Below are positions 10,271 to 54,260 of a stretch of DNA of 64,000 nt, in pieces. A model generated the notes under the pieces. The model saw only the letters and a list, made by a program, of their open reading frames with translations. It did not search any database and was not told the origin of the DNA. The position numbers and the translations under genes are program-made. Numbering within the stretch: the stretch's first letter is position 1; the number at the start of each line of letters is the position of its first letter. The DNA is from Rhizobiales bacterium NRL2 (GTDB lineage Bacteria > Pseudomonadota > Alphaproteobacteria > Minwuiales > Minwuiaceae): the NCBI GenBank assembly GCA_001664005.1, contig CP016093.1:627001-691000 (forward strand). The letters are read 5' to 3'.

Positions 10271-10282
10271 GGACGTCTCCGG

Positions 10283-10762
10283 TTACCAGGCGTGCGCGCC
10301 GGGCAGGGTCGTGTGGATCAGCGTGTGCAGGGCGTCGACACTGCCGAGCAGCCCCTGCAGGTCCTCTTCCAGCAGGATCGCCATGGCGCCTTCGCTGAGC
10401 GTCGGGCGCTCTCGGATCTCCAGCTCGCTGCGAACCTCCCACAGCACGCCGGCGACGATCCGGGCCTCGAACTGGCGCGTGAAGCGCGCTTCCTGCGGCA
10501 ACAGGCCGAGACCGCCCTTCAGGTCGATCTCGAACCACTCGCCGCCTTCCTTCGCGGTCCAGCGGTACCAGGCCTCGAACAGGGCGAACTGCTCACGCCG
10601 CAGCACCCAGCGCACGGTGATGCGGCTCGGCACCTGCGTGTACCGCCTGCGTTGCCGCGCCGGGCCCGCCTCCATCTCCGTCCGCAGGATGGCCTCGCCC
10701 GGCCGGATGCCATAACCGTCGACGGTCGGCAGGGGCAGTCGTTCCGGCCAACGGTTCGTCAT
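10283..10762 (-). CDS. Phage tail-region protein after the tape measure gene
   Basis: A 159-residue protein beginning MTNRWPERLPLPTVDGYGIRP. Its recurring pattern ITVRWVLRREQFALFEAWYRW followed by a Gly/Phe strand is seen in many small phage proteins located downstream of the tape measure gene, at the place of distal tail components such as lambda gpM. No catalytic motif is visible. It starts 30 bases after the tape measure stop. I regard it as a minor tail component, not identified further. Confidence 0.65.
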   Translation of the reverse strand: MTNRWPERLPLPTVDGYGIRPGEAILRTEMEAGPARQRRRYTQVPSRITVRWVLRREQFALFEAWYRWTAKEGGEWFEIDLKGGLGLLPQEARFTRQFEARIVAGVLWEVRSELEIRERPTLSEGAMAILLEEDLQGLLGSVDALHTLIHTTLPGAHAW

Positions 10763-20742: not shown

Positions 20743-22737
20743 TCAGAACCATCCTTCACGCCGCCCGAGCCAGTCGGAGCGGCGTTTGCCTTGCGCGCCC
20801 GGCGACGGGCGCCCGATCATGCCGGCCGGCGTATCCGTGCCGGTCGGGACGCCGAGCTGCGCTTCCAGATCGGCCCATGTCGTCTCGGACCAGCGGTCCG
20901 CGCCCGCGATCCAGGCGGCGGCGCGGGCATAGACCCGACAGTCCAGCGCCTCGTTGCGCTCCCGAAGCTTCTGCCATTCGAGCCGGGCGAAGCCGCGCCG
21001 GTTCCTGACCGTCACCAGCTGCTCGGCGGTGAGCTGTTTGATCCACTCGGTGTCGACCCAGCCCGGCAGATGCACCGTGCCGGGGGCGAAGGCGGCGCCG
21101 GCCTCCATCTCCTCGGGCGTCGGCCGCGGTAGTCGCAGGAAGCGATAGGTCTCGGCCTTGAAGGTCGAAACCGCCACGGTCCATAGCCGCGCCCCCCGGC
21201 GCAGGCGTTTGCCGCCCGCGGTGGCGTCCACGAAGGTCGGTCCCGAGACCGGGCTCGCCCTATTGAAGCCTTCGAGCCCCTTGACCGGGGCGACCTGCGC
21301 GAAGCCGACCGAGCGCGCCCAGCCATAGACGGCGGCCGTCTCGTAGCCCGTGTCGATTGCAAGCCGGGCAAGCCCGAGTTCGGCGCCGCCGGCATGCCGC
21401 CAGTTGCGGCCCAGCAGATCGGTCAGCGCCGCCCAGCTCTCCGGCCGATCCGGCCCGCCCTCGATCACCACATGATCGACGAGCCAGCTCTCTAGGCCGC
21501 GGCCCCAGGCCCAGACGTCGACCTCGATTCGGTCCTTCTGGACGTCCGCGCCGGCGGTCAGGAACAGCCCGCCGGTCGGCACGATGCCTGCCGGCCACTC
21601 CTCGCGGCGCTCGACGAGGCGCTGCCAATCCGGTGCGTCGCCGGTCTCGATCCAGGTCTCGCCGAGCACCGTGTTGCGGAACACCCGCTCGGCCTCGTCC
21701 GAGCCTCTGGCGGCCTCCTTGTCCCGCGCAACGTCGGCCCAGCTCTTCCAGCCCGGCGGCGAATACAGCGCCGAGAGATGAAACCCCACCGTCCGCCCAT
21801 CGTCGGCCTCGGCCGTCGCCCGCCATTCGCCTGCGGCCAGCACGGCGGCCTTGTGGTGCTCCGCGATCGCGGTCTCGCAGGCATCGCAATGGTAAGCGGC
21901 CGTCTCGGGCTTCCCCTTCTCCCAGCGCAGCCGCTCGAACCTGAGCCACTGCATTTCCCCGCAATGCGGGCACGGCACGAAGAAGCGGCGCTGGTCGCTC
22001 GCCTCGTATTCGCGCTCGATGCGGCTCACGCCGCGGATCGTCGGCGTCGAGACCAGGAAGACCTTGCGCCGATGGGCAAAGGTCAGCGACCGCGCCTCGG
22101 CGAGACCGACCGGGTCGCCTTCCTCGTCGGCCGAAGCCGGGTAGGCGTCGACCTCGTCGAGGAAGACGTATCGCGCCGGCATGGAGCGCAGCCCCACGGC
22201 GGAGTTGGCGCCGGTCAGCACCAACACGCCGCCCGGGAAGTCCTTGGACAGCTGCGTGTTGCCGCTGTCGCGCGCCCGCGCCGGCTTCACCCGCTCCCGA
22301 AGCGCCGGGCTTTCTTCGATCAGCGGATCGATGCGCTGGCGCGAGTTGCGCTTGGCCAGCTCCACCGTCGGCTGGACCGCCAGCATCGGCCCCGGCGCAT
22401 GGTGCATCACGAAGCCGATCCAGTTGTTGCCGGCCTCCGTCGCGCCGACCTGCGCGGCTTTCATGAACACGACCCGCTGCGCCGGATGGCTCGGCGAGAG
22501 CGCGTCCATGATCGCGCGCATGTAGGGCGTGCGCTCGGTCCGGTAGCGCCCCGGCTCGGCCGAGGCGCGTGAGGACAGCCAGCGATGCGTGTCCGACCAT
22601 TCGGAAACCGTGAGCCAGGGGTCGGGCGTCAGCCCGCGGCCCCAGGCCCGGATCAGCGCTTCGGCGCCATCGAATCCTTCGATCTCAGCCGAGAGCGATA
22701 CGGGGCTGGGCGAGTTCGTCGAGGTGGGCGCGGACAT
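20743..22737 (-). CDS. Terminase large subunit, GpA family
   Basis: A 664-residue packaging motor subunit. The ATPase part has the Walker A-like FMKAAQVGATEAGNNW (about 90-105), the Walker B-like YVFLDEVDAYP (about 190-200) and a Cys cluster FVPCPHCGEMQW (about 248-259). The C-terminal nuclease part includes GADVQKDRIEVDVWAWG (about 395-411) and LAIDTGYETAAVYGW. GpA-type terminases, as in lambda, usually cut at cos sites. The gene overlaps the small terminase gene by 53 bases. Confidence 0.93.
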   Translation of the reverse strand: MSAPTSTNSPSPVSLSAEIEGFDGAEALIRAWGRGLTPDPWLTVSEWSDTHRWLSSRASAEPGRYRTERTPYMRAIMDALSPSHPAQRVVFMKAAQVGATEAGNNWIGFVMHHAPGPMLAVQPTVELAKRNSRQRIDPLIEESPALRERVKPARARDSGNTQLSKDFPGGVLVLTGANSAVGLRSMPARYVFLDEVDAYPASADEEGDPVGLAEARSLTFAHRRKVFLVSTPTIRGVSRIEREYEASDQRRFFVPCPHCGEMQWLRFERLRWEKGKPETAAYHCDACETAIAEHHKAAVLAAGEWRATAEADDGRTVGFHLSALYSPPGWKSWADVARDKEAARGSDEAERVFRNTVLGETWIETGDAPDWQRLVERREEWPAGIVPTGGLFLTAGADVQKDRIEVDVWAWGRGLESWLVDHVVIEGGPDRPESWAALTDLLGRNWRHAGGAELGLARLAIDTGYETAAVYGWARSVGFAQVAPVKGLEGFNRASPVSGPTFVDATAGGKRLRRGARLWTVAVSTFKAETYRFLRLPRPTPEEMEAGAAFAPGTVHLPGWVDTEWIKQLTAEQLVTVRNRRGFARLEWQKLRERNEALDCRVYARAAAWIAGADRWSETTWADLEAQLGVPTGTDTPAGMIGRPSPGAQGKRRSDWLGRREGWF

Positions 22738-23254
22738 GGGCCTCCAGAACCTTCTGCATGGCCGCCGTCTCCGTCCCCAGCTCCGCCGCCATCAGCGCGG
22801 CGACCCGCGCCGGCCAGTTGACCCAGGCGTCCCGTTCCTCGCGCGCGAGCCGAAACACCAGCGCGGTGGCGCGGTCGCGATCGACGAGCTCGCCCTTGAG
22901 CTTCGCCAGCCGGATCCGTCGCTCCTGCGCCTTCAACACCTCATGCGCGGTCTTCGCCTGCAGGAAGGTCGTGCCGCCGCCCGTCACGGGCGCGGACATC
23001 CCCTGTTCCTTGAGCGTATCGCCCACCGCCGAGACCGCCGCCTCCGGCACCGGCTTCATTCCGGATCCCGCGGACGTCCCCTTTGGGCGACTCTTCGAGG
23101 GATCGGTCGTCTCGGCCCGCTTCGCGTCGCTCGCCGCGGCATCGATCGAGCCGTCGGCATGCAGGACCAGCCGGCCGGCGGCCTTCGCCTTCTGGATCGC
23201 GCCGCGCGACAGCCCGACATGGGCGGCATAACGGCGCTCGCTCATGCCCTGCAT
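22685..23254 (-). CDS. Terminase small subunit (Nu1-like DNA-packaging protein)
   Basis: A 189-residue protein with an N-terminal helix-turn-helix segment (SERRYAAHVGLSRGAIQKAKAAG), as in Nu1-type small terminases that bind the packaging site. A Pro/Ser/Thr-rich linker and a helical C-terminal half (KAQERRIRLAKLKGELVDRD) follow, suited to oligomerisation and contact with the large subunit. The ATG at 23254 follows AGAGG; a second ATG three codons on is possible. It is the first gene of the late operon, so its upstream region should hold the late promoter and perhaps cos. Confidence 0.85.
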   Translation of the reverse strand: MQGMSERRYAAHVGLSRGAIQKAKAAGRLVLHADGSIDAAASDAKRAETTDPSKSRPKGTSAGSGMKPVPEAAVSAVGDTLKEQGMSAPVTGGGTTFLQAKTAHEVLKAQERRIRLAKLKGELVDRDRATALVFRLAREERDAWVNWPARVAALMAAELGTETAAMQKVLEAHVRAHLDELAQPRIALG

Positions 23255-23294
23255 GCGACCTCTAAAACAGCAATGAAATGATGCACTTATCCGC

Positions 23295-23324
23295 TTGATA
23301 GCGGCGCGCATCGGAGCCTGTATG
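23295..23324 (+). promoter_or_regulatory. Possible promoter between terminase and rightward genes
   Basis: TTGATA (23295-23300) and TGTATG (23319-23324) are 18 bases apart, a plausible -35/-10 pair for the + strand gene that starts at 23356 behind CAGGAG. The same 100-base gap must also contain the leftward late promoter, which I could not identify by eye. Confidence 0.35.
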
Positions 23325-23355
23325 GGGCCAGCACGATCAAGCCAGGAGCCAGACG

Positions 23356-23736
23356 ATGGCCACCACGATCCTTCCCACCCGCAACACCGAATGGGGCTTT
23401 TACGGCACCATCGACCGGATCGACGACGATCTGGCCGCCGACGCACCCAAGGCCTGGACGCTCGCCTCGCAAGCCATCGCCGCCGCCACGGGCGTCTCCC
23501 CCGAAGGGGTGCGCGACTTCCTCGACAGCAGCCACGGCCGCCACTTCGCCGACGACGTCGCCAACGCGCTCGCGCGGGGCGACACGCTGAAGGGCGCCAT
23601 CGATGCCGCCGTCGCCCGCTGGATGGGCTGGCGCATCGACTGGCGCACCGAACGCGAGATGGGGATCCCCCGCGGGCTGCCGTATCTCACCGGGTTCGTC
23701 ACCCACTGCGAGATCCTCGCCGAATCCGACGCTTGA
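23356..23736 (+). CDS. Conserved phage/plasmid protein of unknown function
   Basis: A 126-residue protein starting MATTILPTRNTEWGFYGTI. Helical stretches surround GVSPEGVRDFLDSSHGRHFADDV, and the C-terminal part ends in RGLPYLTGFVTHCEILAESDA. Similar short proteins are frequent in alphaproteobacterial prophages and plasmids next to DUF3489 genes, as here, but none has a known role to my knowledge. The start has the ribosome-binding site CAGGAG nine bases upstream. It reads against the phage operons on both sides, a hint of independent expression, possibly in the lysogen. Confidence 0.7.
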   Translation: MATTILPTRNTEWGFYGTIDRIDDDLAADAPKAWTLASQAIAAATGVSPEGVRDFLDSSHGRHFADDVANALARGDTLKGAIDAAVARWMGWRIDWRTEREMGIPRGLPYLTGFVTHCEILAESDA

Positions 23737-23830
23737 GACGCCGCGTCTCTGGGTCCCGCCCGCCGCATGGCGGGCTCGATCTCGTAGAAGGGCCCGCATC
23801 CCGCGCGCCCGGATACGACGGAAACGACAA

Positions 23831-24418
23831 ATGCCAAAACTTTCCGACACCCAACTCGTGATCTTGAGCGCTGCCGCGCAGCGTGACGATCGCAATGTCT
23901 TACCGCTTCCCGGATCGCTGCGCGGGAACGCCGCCAACAAAGTGGTCGGCGCACTTCTCTCTCGCGGGCTGATTGGCGAGCGCGTTACCAAAAAGCAGAC
24001 CAAAGCGGACCCGGCGCTCAACCGCATCTGGCGGAACGACGAGGACGGTCGCGCGGTTCTCCTGCAGATCACCGACGCAGGCCTTGCCGCCATCGGGGTC
24101 GAGCCGGAAGGCGCCGACAGCGCGCCCACGGGCGCCACCCAGACGCCGGCCGACGACGCCGCATCTGACGCCCCCGCCGCCACGAAGTCCGCACCCAAGG
24201 CGCGGACAGCGCGCGAGGGCACCAAGCAGGCGCTGCTGATCGAGATGCTCCGCGCCGAGAACGGTGCGACCATCGCCGAGATCGTCGAAGCCACCGGATG
24301 GCAGCCGCACACGGTGCGGGGCGCCATCGCCGGAGCACTGAAGAAGAAGCTCGGCCTCGACGTCACCTCCGAGAAGGTCGAGGGGCGCGGGCGGGTCTAC
24401 AAGCTGCCGCCCGCCTGA
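23831..24418 (+). CDS. DUF3489 protein with winged-helix-like end
   Basis: A 195-residue protein. Residues 1-80 are a helical domain beginning MPKLSDTQLVILSAAAQRDD. A low-complexity Ala/Pro/Thr linker (about 90-125) leads to the DUF3489 domain GTKQALLIEMLRAENGATIAEI, then TGWQPHTVRGAIAGALKKKLG and a final EGRGRVYKLPPA. The DUF3489 part looks like a winged helix that should bind DNA. Such proteins occur near rightward accessory genes of alphaproteobacterial prophages; a regulator role is likely but unproved. It forms a two-gene unit with the preceding gene. Confidence 0.8.
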   Translation: MPKLSDTQLVILSAAAQRDDRNVLPLPGSLRGNAANKVVGALLSRGLIGERVTKKQTKADPALNRIWRNDEDGRAVLLQITDAGLAAIGVEPEGADSAPTGATQTPADDAASDAPAATKSAPKARTAREGTKQALLIEMLRAENGATIAEIVEATGWQPHTVRGAIAGALKKKLGLDVTSEKVEGRGRVYKLPPA

Positions 24419-24442
24419 CGCGGCAGCATCTTCCATCGCGGA

Positions 24443-24470
24443 GACCGCCGTCCTTCGGGGCGGCGGTTTC
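24443..24470 (+). terminator. Terminator after the DUF3489 gene
   Basis: ACCGCCG and CGGCGGT form a 7-pair stem around a TCCTTCGGGG loop, followed by TTCTC. It ends 25 bases after the DUF3489 stop and abuts the stop of the convergent DUF7220-like gene, so it may serve both strands. The T-run is short. Confidence 0.5.
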
Positions 24471-24695
24471 TCATCGGGCGCCGCGCAGCCGGAGCGCCTC
24501 GAACAGCCGCCGTAGAGCAAACGACCGGGCGATGCTCACGACGGTGAACACCGCACCCATGTTCAGATTCTGTACCAGCGTCGTCTGCAGCCCGAAGACC
24601 GGGAAGATCAGGATCTGCGTGACGACGGCAACGCCGAAGCCCACGGCGACGTTCGCGACAGCCTCGACGAGGGACATGGCACGCGATTGCTTCAT
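24471..24695 (-). CDS. Two-helix membrane protein (DUF7220-like)
   Basis: A 74-residue protein with hydrophobic segments at about 9-33 (VEAVANVAVGFGVAVVTQILIF) and 40-58, ending in a basic tail (RRLFEALRLRGAR). The motif SLVEAVANVAVGFGVAV recalls small phage proteins classed as DUF7220. Its start overlaps the methyltransferase stop by four bases. Location at the end of an early operon, far from the lysis cassette, argues against a holin; superinfection exclusion is one option, without direct evidence. Confidence 0.65.
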   Translation of the reverse strand: MKQSRAMSLVEAVANVAVGFGVAVVTQILIFPVFGLQTTLVQNLNMGAVFTVVSIARSFALRRLFEALRLRGAR

Positions 24696-26005
24696 GCGGC
24701 GTCTGCCGCATCGGATTCACCCAGCCTCTCCTCCCGGACCTCGGCGAAAGTCCGACCGTCGCCATCGAGGATGGCATCGCGGCCGGTCTCGGTCTGCCAA
24801 CGCTCCACGGCGACATCGACATAGGCCGGGCTGATCTCCATCGCGAAGACGCGACGACCGTTGGCTTCGCCCGCCATGATCTGCGAGCCGGAGCCCGAGA
24901 ACGGCTCGTAGCAAAGCCCTCCGCGCTCGACATGCTGGCGCATCGGGATCCCGAACGCGTCGAGCGGTTTCGGCGTGGGATGGTCCGGCCGTTCGTCCTT
25001 GGCGAAGCTCGGCATCTCCCAGGTCGACGGCAGCGTCTCGTCCGCGACCTTCGGCGGGCGTTTGCCCTTGATCCAGCCCATGAAGCAGGGCTCGTGCTTC
25101 CAGAGGTAATGGGACCGGGTCAGCACGCCGCGGTCCTTCACCCAGATGATCTGCTGATGGACGAAAGCGCCGGCCTTCTCCCAGCAGGCCTCCAGCATGG
25201 CCTGGCGGCGCGAGGCGTGCCAGCAGTACCAGGCAGCGTCCTCGGTGATCGCCTCGGCGACGGCGGCAGAGATGAACCCGTCGTAGAGCTCGGCGCCCTG
25301 GCTACTGTCGTCCCAGGTCGTGCCGTAGGAAGCCGACCAGTCCTTGTTCCGCGTCGGATGGTTCGAGCCGTCATAGTCGACGAGGTACGGCGGATCGGTC
25401 GCGAACAGCACCGCGCGCTCGCCGTTCATCAGGCGGCGTACGTCCTCCGCATTGGTGGAATCCCCGCAAAGCAGCCGGTGGTCGCCGAGCCGCCAGAGAT
25501 CGCCCGGCCTCGACGCCGGATTGCGCGGCGGCTCCGGCACGACGACCGGCGGCTGGCCACCACCGGCAGAGCCGTCATCGGCTCCCGTTTCCGCGAGCAG
25601 TCGATCCAGTTCGCCGTCTGCGATGCCGATCAGCGAGAGATCGAAGTCCTCGGCCAGCAGGTCCCGCAGCTCGGCCGAGAGCAGCGCCTCGTCCCAGCCG
25701 CCCATCTCGGTCAGCTTGTTGTCGGCGATGCGGTATGCGCGCCGCTGAGCCTCAGTCAGATGACCGAGCACGATCACCGGCGCTTCGGTCAGACCGAGCT
25801 GGGTCGCCGCCAGGATGCGCCCATGGCCGGCGATCACCTCGCCGTCCTCGGCGACAAGCACCGGCACCGTCCAGCCGAACTCCGCAATGCTGGCGGCGAT
25901 CTTCGCGACCTGATCGTCCCCGTGTGTCTTGGCGTTCTGCGCATAGGGCTTCAGCCGATCGAGCGGCCAGGTCTCGATCGCGTCGGGCGCGAAGCTGAGC
26001 ATCAT
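24692..26005 (-). CDS. ParB-like / DNA methyltransferase fusion (beta class), phage copy
   Basis: A 437-residue protein. Residues 1-130 are a ParB N-terminal-like domain (PLDRLKPYAQNAKTHGDDQV, then GEVIAGHGRILAA). The methyltransferase follows, with LLCGDSTNAEDV, the catalytic DPPY (about 205-208) and, further on, the AdoMet-binding FSGSG (about 369-373). Motif IV before motif I is the beta-class order, so it should methylate adenine N6 or cytosine N4. No restriction partner is next to it, so it is probably an orphan phage enzyme for self-protection or regulation. A second protein of the same design lies at 50,891. Confidence 0.9.
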   Translation of the reverse strand: MMLSFAPDAIETWPLDRLKPYAQNAKTHGDDQVAKIAASIAEFGWTVPVLVAEDGEVIAGHGRILAATQLGLTEAPVIVLGHLTEAQRRAYRIADNKLTEMGGWDEALLSAELRDLLAEDFDLSLIGIADGELDRLLAETGADDGSAGGGQPPVVVPEPPRNPASRPGDLWRLGDHRLLCGDSTNAEDVRRLMNGERAVLFATDPPYLVDYDGSNHPTRNKDWSASYGTTWDDSSQGAELYDGFISAAVAEAITEDAAWYCWHASRRQAMLEACWEKAGAFVHQQIIWVKDRGVLTRSHYLWKHEPCFMGWIKGKRPPKVADETLPSTWEMPSFAKDERPDHPTPKPLDAFGIPMRQHVERGGLCYEPFSGSGSQIMAGEANGRRVFAMEISPAYVDVAVERWQTETGRDAILDGDGRTFAEVREERLGESDAADAA

Positions 26006-37913: not shown

Positions 37914-38359
37914 CGACCGATCCGATTCCCGCGCGCCTGGCCGCCCTGAAGACCATGAAGACGCCGGAACTGAAAGCGCAATGGCGGGAGCTGTTCGAGA
38001 CTGACCCGCCGCCCTACAACCGCCGCTTCCTCGAAAGCCGGCTCGCCTATCGCATCCAGGAACTCGCCTATGGCGGACTGAAGCCCGAGACGGTGAAGCG
38101 GCTGGAGGTGCTCGGCGAGCAGCTGGACGGCGGCAACATCACCACCCGCCGCATCCGGCAAGATCGCAAGCCGATCACCGGTACGAAGCTGATCCGGGAG
38201 TGGCAGGGCGTCGAGCATGTCGTCACCGTCACCGGCGACGGTTTCGAATGGCAGGGGCGTCCCTACCAATCGCTCTCCGCGATCGCCCGCGCCATCACCG
38301 GCACCCGCTGGAACGGCTGGGTGTTCTTCGGGCTGAAGAACCGGCGGGGCGGCGCATGA
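37910..38359 (+). CDS. DUF2924 protein
   Basis: A 149-residue protein of the DUF2924 family, with LKTMKTPELKAQWRELFETD, FLESRLAYRIQELAYGGLKP and the C-terminal FEWQGRPYQSLSAIARAITG, then RWNGWVFFGLKNRRGG. The last part resembles a small DNA-binding or restriction-modification-associated fold. The family nearly always lies just upstream of a serine recombinase, with overlapping start and stop as here, so it is probably a recombination directionality or helper factor. That role is inferred. Confidence 0.88.
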   Translation: MTTDPIPARLAALKTMKTPELKAQWRELFETDPPPYNRRFLESRLAYRIQELAYGGLKPETVKRLEVLGEQLDGGNITTRRIRQDRKPITGTKLIREWQGVEHVVTVTGDGFEWQGRPYQSLSAIARAITGTRWNGWVFFGLKNRRGGA

Positions 38360-39663
38360 CGAAGCCGATCCTCCGCAAGCTCCGCGCCGCCGTCTATACC
38401 CGGAAATCCTCCGAGGAAGGGCTGGAGCAGGAGTTCAACAGCCTCGACGCCCAGCGCGAGTCCTGCGAGGCCTATGTCGCCAGCCAGAAGTCCGAGGGCT
38501 GGGCGCTGGTCCGCGACCGCTACGACGACGGCGGCTATTCCGGGGGAACGCTGGAGCGACCGGGCCTGAAGCGCCTCCTCGCCGACATCGAGGACGGGCT
38601 CGTCGACGTGGTCGTGGTCTACAAGATCGACCGCCTGAGCCGCTCGCTCGCCGATTTCGCCAAGCTGGTCGAGGTGTTCGACCGGCACGGCGTGACGTTC
38701 GTCTCGGTGACGCAGTCGTTCAACACGACGACGTCGATGGGACGGCTCACCCTCAACATCCTGCTCAGCTTCGCCCAGTTCGAGCGCGAGGTCACCGCCG
38801 AGCGCATCCGCGACAAGGTCGCCGCCAGCCGAAAGAAGGGTATGTGGATGGGTGGCTGGGCGCCCTGGGGCTACGACGTGAAGGATCGGAAGCTGATCGT
38901 GAACGCCGCCGAGGCCGCGACGATCCGCATGATCTTCGAGCGGTTCGTGACCAGCGGCTCGGCTACCGCATTGGCGCGGGAGCTTCGGTCCGAGGGAGTC
39001 GTCACCAAGCGCGGAAAGCCCATCGACAAGGGCGCACTCTACAAGCTGCTGAACAACCGCGTGTACATAGGCGAGGCGGTGCACAAGGGGAAGAGCTACC
39101 CCGGCGAGCATGCCGCCATCATCGACCGGGCGCTGTGGGACAAGGTCCATGCGATCCTGGCCGAGAGTCCCCGGAAGCGCGCCGCGCAGACACGCGCCCA
39201 GACGCCCGCCCTCCTGAAAGGGCTGCTGTTCGGCCCCGGTGGCGCGGCCTTCTCGCCGACACACACCCGCAAGGGCGACAAGCTCTACCGGTACTATGTC
39301 AGTCAGGCGGTGCTGAAGCGCGGGCGCGACGCCTGTCCGGTCGGCCGCGTCCCGGCCGCGGAGATCGAGAGCGCCGTGATCGATCAGATCCGGGCTGTCT
39401 TCCGCCAGCCGGAGATCATCGTCGGCACGTGGCGCGCCGCACGCGGCCACGACGCCGAGGTGACGGAGGCCGACGTCCGCGACGCTCTGGAGCAGCTCGA
39501 CCAGCTGTGGGACGAATTGTTCCCGTCCGAGCAGGCCCGCCTCGTACAGCTCCTCGTCGAACGGGTCGAGATCGGCGAAGACGAGCTCGACATCCGGCTT
39601 CGTGCCGACGGCATGCCCGGACTGGTGGCCGAGGTCAGCGGCTACGCGAGGGCGGCGGCATGA
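38356..39663 (+). CDS. Serine recombinase (probable prophage integrase)
   Basis: A 435-residue large serine recombinase. The resolvase domain begins KLRAAVYTRKSSEEGLEQEF, with the probable catalytic Ser 18 after Arg 16, and has VVVYKIDRLSRSLADF and FAQFEREVTAERIRDK (about 135-150). A recombinase domain (GWAPWGYDV, then GVVTKRGKPIDKGALYKLLN) and a zinc-ribbon-like domain (KGLLFGPGGAAFSPTHTRKG) follow. There is no tyrosine integrase in the prophage, so this is the best integrase candidate. Length is normal for the alphaproteobacterial phage subgroup. Start overlaps the DUF2924 stop (ATGA). Confidence 0.9.
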   Translation: MTKPILRKLRAAVYTRKSSEEGLEQEFNSLDAQRESCEAYVASQKSEGWALVRDRYDDGGYSGGTLERPGLKRLLADIEDGLVDVVVVYKIDRLSRSLADFAKLVEVFDRHGVTFVSVTQSFNTTTSMGRLTLNILLSFAQFEREVTAERIRDKVAASRKKGMWMGGWAPWGYDVKDRKLIVNAAEAATIRMIFERFVTSGSATALARELRSEGVVTKRGKPIDKGALYKLLNNRVYIGEAVHKGKSYPGEHAAIIDRALWDKVHAILAESPRKRAAQTRAQTPALLKGLLFGPGGAAFSPTHTRKGDKLYRYYVSQAVLKRGRDACPVGRVPAAEIESAVIDQIRAVFRQPEIIVGTWRAARGHDAEVTEADVRDALEQLDQLWDELFPSEQARLVQLLVERVEIGEDELDIRLRADGMPGLVAEVSGYARAAA

Positions 39664-40058
39664 CGAGCCGCGAGACCCTTTCCGTGCGCGTCCCGTTCCG
39701 CATCCGCAAACACGGCGGCCGGAAGCTGATGGTCTCTCCGGATGGCGCCTCTGCGCCGGCGCGGCCGCGGATCGACAGTACGCTGGTCAAGGCACTCGCC
39801 CGGGCGCATCGCTGGAAGCGTCTGCTGGAGCAGGGCGACTACGGCAACCTGACGGAACTGGCCCGGGCCGAGAAAATCAATCTGTCCTACGTGGGCCGAG
39901 TGCTTCGTCTGACCCTGTTGGCGCCGGACATCGTCGAAGGGATTCTCGACGGGCGGCAGCCGCCAACCTGGCAGCTAGAACTGCTCCTCAAGCCCTTTTC
40001 GGCCGATTGGTCGGAGCAACGCAGGGCGCTGGCTTCAGAAAGCCCTAGCAAAACATAG
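39660..40058 (+). CDS. HTH protein of the recombinase module
   Basis: A 132-residue basic protein whose start overlaps the recombinase stop (ATGA). The N-terminal strands (LSVRVPFRIRKHGGRKLM) lead to a helical region, and YGNLTELARAEKINLSYVGR looks like a helix-turn-helix. Proteins like it follow the recombinase in many alphaproteobacterial copies of this four-gene module. It may bind att DNA or control the recombinase. It is the last gene that clearly belongs to the prophage. Confidence 0.75.
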   Translation: MTSRETLSVRVPFRIRKHGGRKLMVSPDGASAPARPRIDSTLVKALARAHRWKRLLEQGDYGNLTELARAEKINLSYVGRVLRLTLLAPDIVEGILDGRQPPTWQLELLLKPFSADWSEQRRALASESPSKT

Positions 40059-45413: not shown

Positions 45414-48400
45414 ATGACCAAGGCACCGAACCCCCGTATCCAGGATACCGAAAAGCACCTGTCGCAGCTTCCGGCACTGCACCTGCTCCAGAAGATGGAG
45501 CCCCGCTGGCGGCTGCTCACACGCGAGGAGGCGGAGCGCGAGCGGGGCGGCAAGCGCGCCAACGTCTACCTCGACGGCATCCTGAAGGAGAGCCTTGCGC
45601 GCATCAACCGGGTGGAACTCCGCGGCCAGTCCTATCCGTTTACGGAGAACGGGCTTGCCGAGGCGATCGAGCGGCTGAAGCGGCCGCGCCCGTCCGGCCT
45701 GCTCCGCATCAACGAGGAGCTGACGGACCTGCTGCTCCTGGGCACGGCGGTGGAGCAGACGGTGGACGGGATCACGCGGGCGTTCCAGGTCAAGTTCGTC
45801 GACTGGGCAGATCCGTCGGCAAACGTGTTCCATGTCTGCGCCGAGTTCGATGTCGAGCGCGAGCACACGACAGATATGCGGCGTCCGGACCTTGTGCTGT
45901 TCGTAAACGGCATTCCCTTCGCCGTGATCGAGTGCAAGGGCCCATCGACAGGTGTGGATCAGGCGGTTTCGCAGCACATCCGCAACCAGCAGGACGGGGA
46001 GATTCCGGGCCTCTTCCGGACGGTCCAGCTCCTCGTTGCGACCAGTAAGAACGATGTTCGCTACGGCACCGTCGGAACTGCGGCATCCTTCTGGTCGAAA
46101 TGGGCCGAGTTGGAGGACCGCGAGGCCGACGTCCTGGCCGCGATCAACGCGCCGCTCGATGCCGATCAGAACCGCCAGACCTTCGCCGACGGCTTCCGCG
46201 AGGACCGTGCCTCCTACGACGCGCGTTTCGGACAGGGTGATAGGCTCGTCACCGAACAGGACCGCGTGTTGTGGGCGCTCGCCCGCCCGGAACGTCTGCT
46301 CGATCTGGCGCGCCGTTTCACGCTGTCCGATGCCGGCGAGAAGAAGATCGCGCGATACCAGCAGTTTTTCGCCGTGCGGAAGATCCTTCGCCGCGTGACC
46401 GGCGAACGCGATGAGGAAGGACGGCGGCGCGGCGGCGTGATCTGGCACACCCAGGGCTCGGGCAAATCGCTGACGATGGTCATGCTGGCGCGCGCCCTCG
46501 GCCTCGAACCGTCGATCCCCGATCCTCGCATCGTCCTGGTGACTGACCGGATTGATCTGGACGAACAGCTCGAAGGCACCTTCAAGGCATGCGGCCTTGA
46601 GCCCAAGCGTGCCACCACGGGCCGGAACCTGCTCGATCTCGTGGCAACGGAAAAACGGGCGGTGGTCACCACCCTCATCAACAAGTTCGACACGGCCCTG
46701 AACGTCCGCGACTTCTCCGACCCGTCGGAGGACGTCTTCCTGCTGGTCGACGAGAGCCATCGCGGGCAGTACGGCCGGCTGCATTCCCGGATGCGGAAGA
46801 TCTTTCCCAACGCCTGCTATCTGGGCTTCACCGGCACGCCGATTCTCAAGACCGAGAAGAACACCGCCGCCAAGTTCGGGGGCATCATCGACGTCTACGC
46901 GATCGACCAGGCGGTCAAGGACAAGGCGGTCGTGCCGCTCCTGTACGAAGGCCGTCATGTCGAGCAGCGCGTCGACGAGACCGCCATCGACGCCTGGTTC
47001 GAGCGCGTGTGCGCCGGCCTCTCCGAGGACCAGAAGGCGGACCTCAAGCGGAAATACGCCAGGACGGCGCGGCTGTTCCAGACGGAGCAGACCATCGCGC
47101 TTATCGCGTTCGACGTGTCGGAGCATTTCCGCCGCACCTGGAAGGGGACCGGGTTCAAGGGACAGCTGGTCACGCCTTCCAAGCGGTCCGCCATCCTCTA
47201 CAAGCGCGCACTGGACGAGCTGGGCGTGGTCACCTCCGAAGTCATCATCTCGGCGCCCGACGACCGCGAAGGCGAAGAGCGGATCGACGAGGCCTCGTCG
47301 GACGAAGTCAAGCGGTTCTGGAAGACCGCGATGGACCGCTACGGCGACGAGGCGACCTACAACTCGCGCATCATCGAGGCTTTCAAGAAACGGGAGGATC
47401 CAGAGATCCTGATCGTGGTCTCGAAGCTGCTGACCGGCTTCGACGCTCCCCGCAACACCGTCCTCTACCTGGCGCGTCCGCTCACCGAGCACAATCTGTT
47501 GCAGGCGATCGCACGGGTGAACCGGGTCGCGGAAGGCAAGGACTACGGTTACATCGTCGACTATTGCAGCGTTCTCGGCGAGCTAAACCAGGCCCTGTCG
47601 AGCTACTCGGCGCTCGAAGGCTTCGATGAGGCCGACCTCGCTGGGACGGTCACGTCGATCAACACCGAGATCGAGAAGCTCGGCCAACGGCACTCGGAAT
47701 TGTGGGACGTCTTCAGGGGCGTCGCAAACACGGCAGATGAGGAGGCGCTGGAGCAGCATCTGGCCGACGAGGCTCGGCGCGACGAGTTCTACGACCGTCT
47801 CAATGCCTTCTCCAGGACGCTGGCCATCGCGCTGTCAAGCCACGAGTTCGCGAACGAGCCCTCGAACCAACGTCGCATCGCCGGCTATCGTGACGACCTT
47901 CGCCGTTTCGAGAACCTGCGCCGCGCCGTGAGAACACGCTATCAGGATGCGGTGGACTACGGCCAGTACCGCAAGCGGATCGAAAAGCTGCTCGATACCT
48001 ACGTCGTCGCGGACGACGTCCGGCCGATGACCGACCTCATCAACATCTTCGATGAAGATGCGTTTGCCGAGGTTCTGAACTCCAACGCATCGGCGGCAAG
48101 CCGGGCGGACTCCATCGCCCATGCCACGAAGCGGACCATCGACGAGCGATGGGAAGAGGATCCGACGTACTACAAGCGGTTCTCGGAGCTGATCCGGCAA
48201 GCGATCGAGGATTTTCGGGCCAAGAGCATCTCCGACCTCGAGTACCTCAAGCGTGTCCGCGAGATCCGTGACCAGATGGTGCGACGGGACACAACCGACA
48301 TTCCCGAGCCCGTCAGGGACGATCCGCTCGGGCGAGCCTTCTACGGTTGCCTTCGCGAAGCTTTGTCTGACCTCCAGGGCTCCGGCGAGGCCGACACCGA

Positions 48401-48623
48401 AACATTGAGCGCAGAAGCCGCCGCTCACCTGGTCGGCATCATCAACAGCCATCGGCGTGTGGACTGGGCTCAGGATCCGGACGTCGAGAACGCCATGAAG
48501 AACGACATCGACGACTACATCTTTGATGTGATCCGGGGCGAGCACAACGTACCGATTTCGCCGGAGGCGATCGACGCCCTCATCGATCGCCTGTTGATGG
48601 TCGCTCGCCGCCAGGCAGCGTGA
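45414..48623 (+). CDS. hsdR: Type I restriction endonuclease, HsdR
   Basis: A 1069-residue HsdR. The N-terminal nuclease domain has the PD-(D/E)XK residues in RRPDLVLFVNGIPFAVIECKG (about 160-180). The translocase has Walker A in WHTQGSGKSLTMVM (about 344-357), LVTDRIDLDEQ, the DEAH-type box LVDESHRGQYG, FTGTPILKTEKNT and a motif VI-like QAIARVNRVAEGKDYGY. A long helical C-terminus contacts the methylase core. All motifs are intact, so an active type I system is expected. Its stop overlaps the metallopeptidase start by four bases. Confidence 0.95.
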   Translation: MTKAPNPRIQDTEKHLSQLPALHLLQKMEPRWRLLTREEAERERGGKRANVYLDGILKESLARINRVELRGQSYPFTENGLAEAIERLKRPRPSGLLRINEELTDLLLLGTAVEQTVDGITRAFQVKFVDWADPSANVFHVCAEFDVEREHTTDMRRPDLVLFVNGIPFAVIECKGPSTGVDQAVSQHIRNQQDGEIPGLFRTVQLLVATSKNDVRYGTVGTAASFWSKWAELEDREADVLAAINAPLDADQNRQTFADGFREDRASYDARFGQGDRLVTEQDRVLWALARPERLLDLARRFTLSDAGEKKIARYQQFFAVRKILRRVTGERDEEGRRRGGVIWHTQGSGKSLTMVMLARALGLEPSIPDPRIVLVTDRIDLDEQLEGTFKACGLEPKRATTGRNLLDLVATEKRAVVTTLINKFDTALNVRDFSDPSEDVFLLVDESHRGQYGRLHSRMRKIFPNACYLGFTGTPILKTEKNTAAKFGGIIDVYAIDQAVKDKAVVPLLYEGRHVEQRVDETAIDAWFERVCAGLSEDQKADLKRKYARTARLFQTEQTIALIAFDVSEHFRRTWKGTGFKGQLVTPSKRSAILYKRALDELGVVTSEVIISAPDDREGEERIDEASSDEVKRFWKTAMDRYGDEATYNSRIIEAFKKREDPEILIVVSKLLTGFDAPRNTVLYLARPLTEHNLLQAIARVNRVAEGKDYGYIVDYCSVLGELNQALSSYSALEGFDEADLAGTVTSINTEIEKLGQRHSELWDVFRGVANTADEEALEQHLADEARRDEFYDRLNAFSRTLAIALSSHEFANEPSNQRRIAGYRDDLRRFENLRRAVRTRYQDAVDYGQYRKRIEKLLDTYVVADDVRPMTDLINIFDEDAFAEVLNSNASAASRADSIAHATKRTIDERWEEDPTYYKRFSELIRQAIEDFRAKSISDLEYLKRVREIRDQMVRRDTTDIPEPVRDDPLGRAFYGCLREALSDLQGSGEADTETLSAEAAAHLVGIINSHRRVDWAQDPDVENAMKNDIDDYIFDVIRGEHNVPISPEAIDALIDRLLMVARRQAA

Positions 48624-49327
48624 TGATCAGGTCGACGAACTATGGCAGCGCGGTCATCGAATACACTCTTACCCGAAGTCCGCGCTCGTCTCTTTCGATC
48701 TCGGTACTGCCAGATGGCGCCGTCACTGTCACTGCCCCGGAAGAGGCGTCTCCGGACGAGATCGACGAGCGTGTCAGACGGCGGGCGTGCTGGATCCTGC
48801 GCCAGCAGAGGCGGTTCGCGGAGTTTCGGCCGAGGACGCCCCCACGGCAGTTCGTCGGCGGAGAGACTCATCGCTATCTGGGCCGGCAATACCGCCTGAA
48901 GATCGATGGCGCCGAAAAGGATCGGGTTCTAATCCGGTCCGGCCGGCTCGTGGTCGAGACGCGGTTTCCGGACGATCGCGACTGGACCCGGGTGCTAGTT
49001 CGCCGCTGGATGCGCCAGCGCGCGCGGGAAGTGCTCAAGGAGCGCTACGACGAAGCCCGCCCCACCATGGCGGCCCTGGGGATCGAACCGCCTCCGTTGA
49101 TGATCTGCCCCATGAAGAAGCGTTGGGGCAGTCATACGTCGTCGGGCCGCATCCTACTGAATGACATGCTTATCGCGGCGCGGCGCGACTGCATCGACTA
49201 CGTGATCGTCCACGAACTCTGCCACGTCGTCGAGCCGAACCATTCGCCGCGGTTCTTCCGACTCCTTAACCGCTTGATGCCCGACTGGGAGCGCCGCAAG
49301 GATCTCTTGGAAAGGTCGATGATCTGA
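48620..49327 (+). CDS. YgjP-like (M48-type) metallopeptidase
   Basis: A 235-residue protein with the zinc motif HELCHVVEPNHSPRF (His, Glu, His and a third His in NHS), and MKKRWGSHTSSGRILLND upstream, a hallmark of the YgjP/DUF45 family. Such genes very often follow hsdR in type I islands, as here with overlapping start. The family's role with restriction systems is not established; proteolytic control of HsdR levels has been proposed for other proteases and would be an analogy only. Start at the ATG at 48620 (ATGATC) in the GTGATGA overlap. Confidence 0.85.
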   Translation: MMIRSTNYGSAVIEYTLTRSPRSSLSISVLPDGAVTVTAPEEASPDEIDERVRRRACWILRQQRRFAEFRPRTPPRQFVGGETHRYLGRQYRLKIDGAEKDRVLIRSGRLVVETRFPDDRDWTRVLVRRWMRQRAREVLKERYDEARPTMAALGIEPPPLMICPMKKRWGSHTSSGRILLNDMLIAARRDCIDYVIVHELCHVVEPNHSPRFFRLLNRLMPDWERRKDLLERSMI

Positions 49328-49527: not shown

Positions 49528-49656
49528 ACGCGCCGAATGGCGCGGTTCCTCGGGAAGTTCCGCGCGATCTCTGGCGCGGAGAACGTTCGACCGGGTAGAA
49601 ATGGCGGTCCATGTAGTCCATTGCGAACCGTTCTCCGGGTGCCGTGTGCCTGTTTA

Positions 49657-49869
49657 CAGGGAAGAACAGGGAATTTTCGGCATTTTCGGCCGTGGAGAAG
49701 CGCTTTCCGCTGCTATAACCCCCTGAATTCCTGCCTCTTTCCGCCCGAATTCCCTGTGACTAATAACAGGGAATTCAATTGCCGGAACAGGGTGCTGGAA
49801 TCCGCCAGCAGGGAATCTGGATTGGCTTGCAGGGAACCCCGCTACGAAGAGCAGCGAACCCCCAGGGAA
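49657..49869 (+). repeat. CAGGG(AA) array, 21-base phased in its right part
   Basis: CAGGG begins at 49657, 49667, 49767, 49788, 49809, 49830 and 49863, all in one direction, with a degenerate CAGCG at 49852. From 49767 the steps are 21, 21, 21, 22 and 11 bases, that is, whole helical turns. The fixed word is usually CAGGGAA; sequence between copies is not conserved, so it is not a tandem repeat in the ordinary sense. Confidence 0.85.
49747..49776. repeat. Perfect 11-base inverted repeat inside the CAGGG array
   Basis: GAATTCCCTGT (49747-49757) and ACAGGGAATTC (49766-49776) are exact inverse copies around the 8-base centre GACTAATA. The right arm contains the first copy of the phased CAGGG series. 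No T-run follows, so it looks like a protein-binding dyad more than a terminator. Confidence 0.85.
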
Positions 49870-50085
49870 CTGGCATCAGTCCGCGGCTCCAGGGGCGCCT
49901 CGGGCCACTGCCTTGGACAACGCCATGCACGCCTGGCCCGCAGCAACACCGGCTTCCGCGGACATTGCAACTGCGCACTCGACAGGCCAGGTCCGGGCGC
50001 ACCTTGCATGGGGACAACAGACGCTGCGCACCGGAGTGGGCAGCCACCAGACATGGTCGAACAGACGCCGGGGGCTTCGCAATGC

Positions 50086-50270
50086 GGGACGGGACGCACC
50101 TGAAGCGGGACGGGATTGCGGGTTAGCGGGACGATAGTGGGACGAAACGCGAGTAAACCGGGACGGATTCGCACCTTACCGGGACGATGATGGGACAGGG
50201 TGGCGCCAAGCTGGGATGGGAATCGAATGACGCGGGACGGAATGGCCGCATTGTGGGACAGACCCGGGAC
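50086..50270 (+). repeat. GGGAC array phased at 21 and 11 bases
   Basis: GGGAC begins at 50086, 50107, 50128, 50139, 50160, 50181, 50192, 50234, 50255 and 50266, with GGGAT at 50213 filling the one missing place. Steps are 21, 21, 11, 21, 21, 11, 21, 21, 21, 11. One extra copy lies at 50091. All copies read in the same direction and lie on about the same face of the helix. An 11-base step excludes a codon-based origin. Sequence between words is not conserved. Confidence 0.9.
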
Positions 50271-50662: not shown

Positions 50663-50799
50663 AACGCTCCTAAAACGCTTGAACGCTCTAAAACGCCTTT
50701 TGAACGCCTGTTTTGGGCCATTAAAACGCTGCCGGCTTCGAGCGTTTTGAAATCGGGGCTTCCGAGACGGGTTCTCCCACAGGTTTTACCGCAGAACGC
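50663..50799 (+). repeat. AACGC cluster upstream of the ParB-methyltransferase gene
   Basis: AACGC begins at 50663, 50674, 50682, 50692, 50703, 50725 and 50795, with an inverted copy at 50742-50746. Copies alternate between GAACGC and AAAACGC, and two of them form a near-tandem unit of 19 bases. Steps of 8-11 and 22 bases are less regular than in the other two blocks. It lies 90-230 bases before the next gene, so it could be an operator region. Confidence 0.75.
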
Positions 50800-50890
50800 T
50801 TTGACATTCCCGCAAGGATCGCGAATGCGTGGATGAAGGGCGCGATGGGAACAGAACGTGATCATTCGTGTCCCTGAGCAAACCAACACC

Positions 50891-52333
50891 ATGTCGGAGA
50901 ATCTGAGAATGAGCTCCAGAAACCAGCGCCGCGCAGGCGGTACGAAGCAGACCGACCGAACCCGGAGCAGAAGCCCGGAACGGGTCGTATCCACGATCAC
51001 CGAGCGCCGCATTGATGCGCTGCGCCCCTATGAGGGCAATGCCCGGACCCACTCGAGACGGCAGATCCGCCAGATCGCTGACAGCATCGATCGCTTCGGC
51101 TTCACCAACCCGGTGCTGATCGCCGACGATGACACCATCATCGCCGGCCATGGCCGCGTGCTGGCGGCACGATCGCTCGGCATGACGGAGGTGCCGACCG
51201 TGCGTCTTTCGCACATGAGCGAAGCCGAACGCAGGGCCTACATCCTGGCCGACAACAAGCTCGCCCTGAATGCGGGCTGGGACCAGGACCTGCTGGCGAT
51301 CGAACTGCAGGGACTGATCGATCTCGACTTCGATGTGGAACTGACCGGCTTCTCGCTCGCGGAGATCGATTTTACCCTCGATGCGGCAAGCGAACGGGAG
51401 ACACCGGGCCCGGCGGCACCGGAGGACGAGATCCCGCCGCTGCCGCAGACAGCGATCAGCCGGCAGGGCGATCTCTGGCGCTGCGGACGCCATCGACTGC
51501 TCTGCGGTGATGCCCGCTCATCTGCCGACTACGATCTGCTGCTGGAACAGGAGCAGGTCGATCTGGTCTTCACCGATCCGCCCTACAATGTAGCGATCGA
51601 CGGCCATGTCTCCGGACTTGGCAAGGTGCGCCACCGGGAGTTTGCCTTCGCCTCGGGCGAGATGTCGGAGGACGCCTTCACCACCTTCCTGACCGAGACC
51701 CTGGGAGCGGCGGCGGATCGCTGTCGCGACGGCGCCATCGCCTTCGTCTGCATGGACTGGCGGCACATGGGGGAGTTGCTCGCGGCAGGCCGCACGGTCT
51801 TCTCGGAACTGAAGAACCTCTGCGTCTGGAACAAGACCAATGGCGGCATGGGGAGCTTCTATCGCTCCAAGCATGAGCTGGTCTTTGTCTTCAAGGTGGG
51901 GACGGGTCCGCATGTGAACAGCTTCGGTCTCGGCGAGACGGGTCGCTACCGGACCAATGTCTGGGACTATGCCGGCATCAACAGCTTTGGTGCCAGCCGG
52001 GACACGGATCTGGCCATGCACCCGACGGTCAAGCCGGTCGCCCTGGTGGCGGATGCGATCCGGGACTGCTCGAAGCGGGGTGACATCGTGCTCGACGGCT
52101 TTGGCGGTTCGGGCACGACCCTGATCGCAGCGGAGCAGGTTGGCCGCCAGGCACGGCTGCTGGAGTTCGATCCGGCTTATTGCGATACCATCGTGCGGCG
52201 TTGGGAACGCCTTACCGGCAAGCACGCCACGCTCGCGGCATCGGGTGAGCGTTTCGAGGATGTCGAGGAGGAACGCCTTGCCGGGGTCGAGCCAGGGGCA
52301 TTCGGCCCTGCCAACGGGGAGATCGCCAAATGA
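50891..52333 (+). CDS. ParB-like / DNA methyltransferase fusion (beta class), second copy
   Basis: A 480-residue protein from the ATG at 50891; GTG at 50858 and ATG at 50909 are alternatives. Residues about 30-160 are the ParB-like domain (RIDALRPYEGNARTHSRRQI, DTIIAGHGRVLAARSLGM). The methyltransferase has LLCGDARSS, catalytic DPPYNVAIDG and later DGFGGSGTTLIAAEQ, the beta-class order. It differs in most positions from the prophage copy at 24,692 and has no restriction gene beside it. It leads a cluster with DUF5681 and a nucleotidyltransferase; the AACGC word block lies just upstream. Confidence 0.88.
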   Translation: MSENLRMSSRNQRRAGGTKQTDRTRSRSPERVVSTITERRIDALRPYEGNARTHSRRQIRQIADSIDRFGFTNPVLIADDDTIIAGHGRVLAARSLGMTEVPTVRLSHMSEAERRAYILADNKLALNAGWDQDLLAIELQGLIDLDFDVELTGFSLAEIDFTLDAASERETPGPAAPEDEIPPLPQTAISRQGDLWRCGRHRLLCGDARSSADYDLLLEQEQVDLVFTDPPYNVAIDGHVSGLGKVRHREFAFASGEMSEDAFTTFLTETLGAAADRCRDGAIAFVCMDWRHMGELLAAGRTVFSELKNLCVWNKTNGGMGSFYRSKHELVFVFKVGTGPHVNSFGLGETGRYRTNVWDYAGINSFGASRDTDLAMHPTVKPVALVADAIRDCSKRGDIVLDGFGGSGTTLIAAEQVGRQARLLEFDPAYCDTIVRRWERLTGKHATLAASGERFEDVEEERLAGVEPGAFGPANGEIAK

Positions 52334-53289
52334 GCGGCGGTCAGGACGGTGGCAGCGGACAACCGCGCCGACGAGCCAGCGCTGCGAATCACGACGACCG
52401 CACGAATACCGATGCTCATCGCGACGACGGTGACGATTACGAGGTAGGCTTCCGCAAGCCGCCACGGTCAACGCGGTTCAAAAAGGGCCAGTCCGGCAAT
52501 CCACGAGGACGACCGAAGAAGCCCAAGCCGGAACCCATTCATCTGGCGGATGCGCCTGCCGACACCTTCCTCGAACAGGAAGCCTATCGTCTGCTGACGT
52601 TCCGGGAGAACGGCCAGGAGGTCCAGCTTCCGGCCACACAGGCGGTGGTTCGCTCATCGATCATGTCCGCGCTCAAGGGCAACCGCCTGTCTCAGCGCTT
52701 TGTCATCGAGCTCATGGACCGGAAGGAGGAGCAGTATCTTGAGTTACGCCTGAAACGGTTCTTGCGTCTGGAGAAGCTGAAGGCCGAGGGCGAGGCGAAG
52801 ATAGCCGAACATCAGAAGCGGGGCCTGCCACCGCCTGACCTGCTGCCGCATCCGGAAGATATCGTGCTCAACTACCGGACCAGCGATGCGGAGATCCATG
52901 GCCCCGAGACCCGCGAGGATCTCCGCGACTGCGCGTACACGGCCGATCTGCGCGATCTCTGCATGATGCAGGCCGCGCTCAGCGAGAAACAACGCCCGAG
53001 AACCGAAGCAGGAGACAAGAGCAATGTCCCCACGGCGATGGTGTTTGCCCAACTCATGGACCACCTCCTACCCCGCCGCTTCCAGTGGAGCGAGGTCGAG
53101 GAAGTCTCGGTGTTCATGGGCTTCATGGCCGAGGACCGCAAAAAGTTGAAGGCACGGATCGAAAGGGAGATGGCGCGGCTCGAACGCGAACGTCCGCCAT
53201 CAACGCTGAGTGAAGCCCAACGGGCCCTGGTCGATCGGACTTCGCAACGGCTAGGTGAACAACTCTGGCCAAAGGAGAAGGAGGGCTGA
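52330..53289 (+). CDS. DUF5681 protein
   Basis: A 319-residue protein. It has the DUF5681 signature FRKPPRSTRFKKGQSGNPRG, then RPKKPKPEPIH, at residues 39-70, after a disordered acidic N-terminus. The rest is helical and charged (EEQYLELRLKRFLRLEKLKA), with an Arg/Glu-rich C-terminus. The start overlaps the methyltransferase stop (ATGA). DUF5681 proteins regularly accompany ParB-methyltransferases in mobile DNA, and the KKGQSGNPRGRP motif looks like a DNA minor-groove hook. The function is not known. Confidence 0.85.
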   Translation: MSGGQDGGSGQPRRRASAANHDDRTNTDAHRDDGDDYEVGFRKPPRSTRFKKGQSGNPRGRPKKPKPEPIHLADAPADTFLEQEAYRLLTFRENGQEVQLPATQAVVRSSIMSALKGNRLSQRFVIELMDRKEEQYLELRLKRFLRLEKLKAEGEAKIAEHQKRGLPPPDLLPHPEDIVLNYRTSDAEIHGPETREDLRDCAYTADLRDLCMMQAALSEKQRPRTEAGDKSNVPTAMVFAQLMDHLLPRRFQWSEVEEVSVFMGFMAEDRKKLKARIEREMARLERERPPSTLSEAQRALVDRTSQRLGEQLWPKEKEG

Positions 53290-53435
53290 CGGCACCCGGT
53301 CTGGAGGAAAGGTCGGGTAGATTGACAGGCCGAAATGCTGAGAGATCCGAACCCGGCTGGACTTCCGGGGGCGACCAAGTCATTCCCGGTGTTGTAGTTG
53401 GCATTCATCCACGAGAAGAGACAAGGAACTTTCCG

Positions 53436-54260
53436 ATGGCACAGCTGCGCCAACTGGGCCCGGGCTTCGACCCGGTGGTCGTCGCCGGAATCGACGCAAA
53501 GCTGCACGAGGTCGAGGCGAACCATGGTGTCCGCATTCTGCTGGCCATCGAGAGCGGCAGCCGGGGATGGGGTTTTCCATCGCCGGACAGTGACTACGAC
53601 TGCCGCTTCATCCATGTCCGCCCGCAATCCGATTATCTGAGCCTCTATCCGCCGCGCGATGTCATCGAGTATCCGCCGGATGCGATCTACGACGTGAATG
53701 GCTGGGACCTCGCCAAGATGCTGAAGCTGCTGCTGAAGGGCAATGCCGTGGTGCTGGAATGGCTGATGTCGCCCTTTGTCTATCGCGGGGAGGCGGACTT
53801 CCGGGCTGAGGCGCTGGCCCTGGCCGACCAGGTGGTACAACCAGCTGCCATCGCGATGCATTACCTGCATCTGGGGGAACGGCAACGGGAGACCGCCTTT
53901 GCCGACGGATCAGAGGTCCGGCTGAAGAAGCTGTTCTATGTCCTGCGCCCGGCCCTTGCCTTGCGTTGGATGCGGCTGCATCCGGACAGGGCGATCGTGC
54001 CCATGGCGTTCCGGACCCTGGTGGCGGAGAGCGATGTCTCTGCGGACAGCACCGCGATCATCGACGATCTGCTCGCCCGCAAGGCGGAGACACGCGAGAT
54101 GGGGCACGGAAGGATGCCACGGGAGATTGGCGCCCTGATCGACGCGGAGTTCGGGCAAGCGCGGCAGCGCTGGCCGGAACCGGCAACGCGGCCAGGAGAC
54201 GAGGCGGTCAGACTGGCGGATGCGTTCTTCCAGAGGTGGGTGAATAGCGGGGACAGCTAA
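53436..54260 (+). CDS. RlaP-type nucleotidyltransferase
   Basis: A 274-residue DNA polymerase beta-superfamily protein. The nucleotidyltransferase core GSRGWGFPSPDSDYDCRF lies at about 41-58, with the metal-binding Asp pair in DSDYD. It is followed by VIEYPPDAIYDVNGWDLAKM and a helical C-terminus (KLFYVLRPALALRWM). This matches the family called RNA repair pathway polymerase beta (RlaP, PF10127). Its substrate here is unknown. The ATG at 53436 follows AAGGAAC; longer frames to the left lack a site. It is 147 bases after DUF5681, possibly a separate unit. Confidence 0.85.
   Translation: MAQLRQLGPGFDPVVVAGIDAKLHEVEANHGVRILLAIESGSRGWGFPSPDSDYDCRFIHVRPQSDYLSLYPPRDVIEYPPDAIYDVNGWDLAKMLKLLLKGNAVVLEWLMSPFVYRGEADFRAEALALADQVVQPAAIAMHYLHLGERQRETAFADGSEVRLKKLFYVLRPALALRWMRLHPDRAIVPMAFRTLVAESDVSADSTAIIDDLLARKAETREMGHGRMPREIGALIDAEFGQARQRWPEPATRPGDEAVRLADAFFQRWVNSGDS

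Follow-up and report, generated by a model that had tools for sequence, protein, structure and literature searches.

Two helically phased word arrays at the left end of an alphaproteobacterial genomic island: a candidate accessory arm for a serine recombinase

The window that we analyzed, a stretch of 64,000 nucleotides from Rhizobiales bacterium NRL2, contains two arrays of short, helically phased words just inside the left end of a mobile genomic island: an array of CAGGGAA words and, about 225 bp downstream on the same strand, an array of GGGAC words. With moderate confidence, we interpret the two together as the accessory arm of the attachment site of a serine-recombinase island that enters tRNA 3' ends. 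Judging from their sequence, the arrays are probably bound cooperatively by recombination proteins. A sequence-only reading had proposed that the GGGAC words form a binding platform for a protein or a chain of proteins, which remains their best explanation, with several proteins probably taking part; they are not, however, a stand-alone element, but the second of two arrays at an island end.

The second array (50086..50270, + strand) consists of ten GGGAC and one GGGAT, all on the + strand, starting at 50086, 50107, 50128, 50139, 50160, 50181, 50192, 50213 (GGGAT), 50234, 50255, and 50266. A recount thus gave exactly the steps first reported for it (21, 21, 11, 21, 21, 11, 21, 21, 21, and 11 bp). 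Three neighbours are out of register (GGGAC at 50091, GGGAT at 50112, and GGGA at 50218), and the bases flanking the words show a weak preference for C/T before and G/A-G/A after. The phasing is real and chance is excluded. In a blind scan of every 5-mer of the 64-kb window for chains with steps of 10, 11, 21, or 22 bp, GGGAC formed the longest exact-word phased chain (7 words, or 11 when GGGAT is allowed), whereas chains reached at most 4 words in shuffled sequence, whether second-order over the whole window (60 shuffles) or local and first-order, scored for GGGAC/T (20,000 shuffles); randomised sequence does not, therefore, give equal phasing. The 21-11 pattern GGGACN16GGGACN6GGGAC has 8 matches in the 4.7-Mb genome, all inside three arrays, and the same pattern read backward has none in that genome. 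Besides the copy in the window, there are two further full GGGAC arrays, and a third additional copy, near 1,886,264, stops after three words. In ungapped alignments of the window copy with the two other full copies, words are 96-98% identical and spacers 48% (Fisher p ~1e-11), which implies that the words have been selected; the spacing of the words is kept at these homologous loci although the spacers fall to 48% identity. Spacers are also unrelated to one another within the array of the window, as had been noted. The helical phasing and the non-coding nature of the array both stand: the 11-bp steps rule out a coding repeat, and the unrelated spacers and the shuffles rule out a simple tandem duplication. 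We likewise rejected an RNA element, as no part of the window matched an Rfam family.

The end of the island that carries the arrays is defined to the base. Homology among five genomes of the genus starts at window positions 49600-49602 and extends rightward, and the left flanks are unrelated in all five. The left crossover core, TGGCGG (49602..49607, + strand), lies at the start of this homology, is the reverse complement of the tRNA-Ser 3' end (CCGCCA), and is repeated at the right end beside tRNA-Ser. That right end is located 36.2 kb away, beyond the window, and abuts the 3' end of tRNA-Ser(cga); in this genome and in one relative, homology stops again ~200 bp after the serine recombinase gene (710,675-712,615 in this genome), the island measuring 36.2 kb here and ~31.7 kb in the relative. 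The island has these hallmarks of a tRNA-targeting island: sharp ends, a tRNA 3' end on one side, a short direct repeat of it on the other, and an integrase gene (the serine recombinase) adjoining one end. No clean empty integration site was found in the relatives, the flanks of which differ in each case. In this copy, the first island gene encodes a ParB-like/N6-N4 DNA methyltransferase (50858..52333, + strand; PF01555, phrog_498), followed by a gene for a DUF5681 protein (52330..53289, + strand; PF18932, phrog_26239), which in related islands and phages occupies the place of the small terminase. A transposon with terminal inverted repeats was considered and rejected since, in this genome, array-bearing ends occur only in the orientation of their partner recombinase and never as converging pairs.

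From the core inward, the island begins with a conserved terminal block (49602..49636, + strand), TGGCGG..GTAGTC..GCGAACCGTTCTC, with a class-wide consensus TGGnGGnGnnnGCAGTCnnnnGCGAACCnGTCTC. The first array (49657..49869, + strand) follows, with CAGGGAA at 49657, 49667, 49767, 49809, 49830, and 49863, a degenerate CAGGGTG at 49788 that completes its 21-bp lattice, and an inverted TTCCCTG at 49750. The spacer between the two arrays (49870..50085) is nearly constant in length and diverged in sequence between island copies, and the distance from the last CAGGGAA to the first GGGAC is 223 bp in one copy and 227 bp in another, so that there is no strict phase between the arrays. Every GGGAC locus in this genome has CAGGGAA, which also occurs elsewhere in it without a full GGGAC array. 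The motif CAGGGAAN14CAGGGAA is present in 43 of the 385 Alphaproteobacteria sampled and its reversed control in two. Among the same 385 genomes, the GGGAC form is restricted to the genus, except for one unrelated tandem repeat; the genome-wide CAGGGAA scan was contaminated by cyanobacterial 7-mer repeats (21 = 3 x 7), which we filtered. No second array built on another word was detected in other islands at a threshold of at least five exact words. Distant genomes share a common layout, composed of the terminal block, a TTCCCTG/CAGGGAA/CAGGGAA group, a gap, AATTCCCT, and then words spaced by 21 bp. In CAGGGAA arrays, the length of the large gap clusters near 77, 98, 109, 119, and 131 bp. These classes are separated by about 10.5 bp, the interval predicted by a helical lattice in which some sites are vacant; some of them reflect a lost word and not an altered gap. 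We recognized the terminal block upstream of 38 of 56 arrays; in most of these 38, the first CAGGGAA starts 41-46 bp away from the core, and in the others mainly about one helical step further.

Sister islands reproduce this arrangement at other tRNA genes. Of the five DUF2924 genes in this genome, four each have a partner left end that carries an array and is oriented as they are, and the islands could be traced end to end at tRNA-Ser (36.2 kb), tRNA-Met (38.3 kb), tRNA-Pro (38.0 kb), and tRNA-Val (58.4 kb). The first six to seven bases of the left end equal the 3' end of the target tRNA for Met (TGGTGG), Pro (TTGGTCG), and Val (TGGTGG), and the same holds in a genome of another family, where the target is tRNA-Gln and the left core GTGGCTG. 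Across the class, a tRNA gene lies 172-420 bp after the recombinase ORF at 11 of 20 DUF2924 loci, its 3' end always facing the recombinase. GGGAC arrays occur in three of the four traced islands, the one at tRNA-Val having CAGGGAA without GGGAC, and their presence tracks the left-end genes (methyltransferase-DUF5681) more closely than the sequence clade of the recombinase-DUF3489 module. For these two reasons the proposed role is less certain for GGGAC, to which a second protein may bind, than for CAGGGAA, which keeps a fixed distance to the core across genomes. There is also a mirrored type of island (L246, L521, and L093), in which the array, its polarity mirrored, sits on the recombinase side, with the tRNA on one flank and the 3' end of the recombinase gene on the other. 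The genes neighbouring the arrays vary (methyltransferase, recombinase, DUF5681, or the 3' end of the terminase gene terL), which, together with the fixed core distance and the mirrored islands, argues that the arrays hold their place relative to the crossover and not to any gene. The left flanks of the tRNA-Met, tRNA-Pro, and tRNA-Val islands and of L035 resemble right-arm sequence, indicating repeated insertion at the same tRNA.

The right end encodes, in this order, DUF3489, DUF2924, and the serine recombinase. The latter (646 aa in the island of the window) has an N-terminal Resolvase domain (PF00239, residues 51-203) followed by a Recombinase domain (PF07508, residues 223-363), the architecture of large serine integrases. 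The N-terminal DNA-binding domain of the short IS607-like recombinases is absent, although phased direct repeats inside an end of a serine-recombinase element, the other IS607-like feature, are present; with such a domain layout, the island may work like IS607 ends without being a member of that family. DUF3489 is predicted to be a MarR-like winged helix, and its fold matches include the winged-helix centromere binder AspA. No structural match was found for DUF2924 in a PDB fold search.

The excised circle would carry, in order, the recombinase gene, ~200 bp, the crossover core, the CAGGGAA array, and the GGGAC array. In the mechanism that we envisage, an island-encoded DNA-binding protein would contact a single face of the DNA and read a word at every turn or every second turn, candidates being the winged-helix DUF3489 protein, DUF2924, and the C-terminal domain of the recombinase itself. 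Once bound, it could polymerise into a filament or a wrap that joins both ends or partner sites, and this structure might set the direction of the reaction, excision versus integration.

Parts of this scheme have precedents. Arm sites of tyrosine integrases (lambda, P4-like) place phased short words beside the core and belong to tRNA-targeted islands, and replication iterons follow the same phased-word principle. The enzyme here is, by contrast with the former, a serine recombinase, and no tyrosine integrase was recognized beside the ends examined. Given these two kinds of site and the phased direct repeats at IS607-family ends (PMC6188088), the earlier statement that no described element obeys such a rule was too strong. 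In the IS607-family element IS1535, four 9-bp repeats close to one end are in helical phase, and on them the serine recombinase TnpA nucleates a filament (PMC6188088). Both systems are serine-recombinase elements with short phased direct repeats inside one end and no terminal inverted repeats, and both would use a cooperative filament that pairs the ends, something only proposed for the island of the window. They differ in that IS607 elements are small, have little target specificity, and carry four 9-bp motifs ~20-60 bp from the end, whereas the 36-kb island has two arrays of 6-11 words reaching ~670 bp from the end, tRNA targets, and a long Resolvase+Recombinase enzyme. IS607 ends and the arm sites of tyrosine integrases come closest as precedents. 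Large serine integrases (phiC31, Bxb1, A118) share the PF00239 and PF07508 domains and a gene beside one attachment end, but the island has a tRNA 3' end as its core, flanked by long arrays. Characterised serine integrases recombine at sites of 40-50 bp and do without auxiliary DNA (PMC3783163), so that a requirement for arrays would be new. The phage WO of Wolbachia has a DUF2924 gene immediately before its recombinase gene (PMC10299305), the same gene order as here; the text consulted on it reports neither a search for phased arrays nor their presence (PMC10299305).

Among the alternatives to an attachment-site arm, we weighed the possibility that the arrays are iterons, that is, the replication origin (or centromere) of the excised circle, bound by an initiator or a partition protein. 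Same-direction words at one or two turns (10-11 or 21 bp) are typical of the iterons read by phage O/DnaD-type initiators or plasmid Rep, phage contigs from IMG/VR contain GGGACA arrays with 10-11 bp steps inside DnaD/Lin1244-like initiator genes (L255 and L258) or near VapE/primase genes (L253 and L277), and AspA, among the DUF3489 fold matches, would also suit a centromere. We nevertheless judge this explanation unlikely: no initiator gene could be recognized near the arrays, at the right end, or among the listed ORFs of the island, the interior of which is annotated in part, and the array is tied to the core (41-46 bp) and switches arm with it, as an origin need not do. A role of the GGGAC array as the packaging (pac/cos) site of a phage satellite, read by the DUF5681 small-terminase-like protein, is rather improbable. 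DUF5681 and TerL do occur in related islands, in marine phage contigs (the L252 group) a few hundred bp separate a DUF5681-TerL operon from GGGACTAAGC arrays with 21/11 bp steps, and in L247 a CAGGGAA array directly precedes DUF5681-TerL; yet many DUF5681 islands have no GGGAC array, the neighbours of the arrays vary while their terminal position is constant, the arrays do not consistently adjoin a terS-terL pair, and no TerL was seen in the inspected part of the island of the window. As phage GGGACA and GGGACTAAGC arrays occur in iteron-like and packaging-adjacent settings, respectively, we retain these two explanations for GGGAC at their lower probability. Quite doubtful, too, is a function as operators, with a repressor filament over the first island genes (the methyltransferase operon). 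The array of the window lies upstream of the methyltransferase gene, and in two sister islands genes for MucR-type regulators are found between array and methyltransferase, but the distance to the methyltransferase varies from ~0.6 to 1.2 kb whereas that to CAGGGAA stays at 223-227 bp, and in the mirrored islands the array comes after the 3' end of the recombinase gene. Finally, chance or a decayed tandem or coding repeat, for which one could invoke the weakly preferred bases adjoining the word, deserves almost no credence in view of shuffles reaching at most 4 words, unrelated spacers, 11-bp steps, selection on the words, and the same spacing at three loci.

The attachment-site interpretation may extend beyond this genus. 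Tentatively, and with less assurance than for the island of the window, we propose that a widespread group of alphaproteobacterial serine-recombinase islands builds its attachment complex at tRNA 3' ends on long helically phased arrays, one word per turn being read by the winged-helix DUF3489 and/or DUF2924, and that some lineages add second arrays with a word of their own, GGGAC in this case. Our search of the full-text literature, of incomplete coverage, retrieved no description of these arrays and only four papers naming DUF2924 or DUF3489. tRNA-targeting islands and phased accessory sites were already known; their pairing with a large serine recombinase at such a scale appears to be new. 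A common island family, undescribed in the literature searched, is thereby delimited, with its exact ends, targets, integrase, and two conserved accessory genes. Some large serine recombinases may use long phased accessory arrays, contrary to the textbook minimal sites of 40-50 bp, which, if true, bears on the control of direction and on the use of these enzymes in genome editing. The array is also a ready-made reporter, a single search being enough to locate island ends.

Several other features deserve mention. Upstream of the methyltransferase gene, six AACGC words (50663..50729, + strand; steps of 11, 8, 10, 11, and 22 bp), in which TGAACGC and AAAACGC alternate, are a candidate operator or possibly a third phased site. 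In L018, at about 9920-10335 (raw coordinates), a remnant of a recombinase C-terminus borders the tRNA-Pro island at its left end, a scar that an earlier island left at the same tRNA. In viruses, the related marine phages L252, L254, L257, L259, L260, L263, and L276 have GGGACTAAGC arrays at 21/11 bp by DUF5681-TerL-portal operons, and GGGACA arrays with 10-11 bp steps lie inside initiator-like genes, an iteron-in-gene arrangement, at L258:10775-11950, L255:9864-10763, and L262:3-503. Viral scans for 21-21-21 and 18-18-18 steps were uninformative because steps divisible by 3 also catch coding repeats, and the contigs of the 21-14-21 control were mostly those of the 21-21-21 scan. Beside DUF5681, the window has a gene of the RlaP family (RNA-repair nucleotidyltransferase; 53322-54260), also found in the sister tRNA-Pro island, and ORF translations inspected by eye at 689-709 kb of this genome include copper/heavy-metal-like genes, among them a heavy-metal ATPase, which look like island cargo. 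Directly to the left of the island end, an HsdR-like type I restriction gene followed by a YgjP metallopeptidase gene (45414-49327) constitutes strain-specific cargo. Further left, terminase-large-like and ParB-like methyltransferase genes on the minus strand (20743-26005) suggest another phage- or satellite-like stretch before 49600. The window also contains a second DUF2924-serine recombinase module (37931-40057), of a different subfamily and with no tRNA in the window, which is apparently divided between two overlapping reading frames, a condition also seen in L506, L513, L514, and L518.
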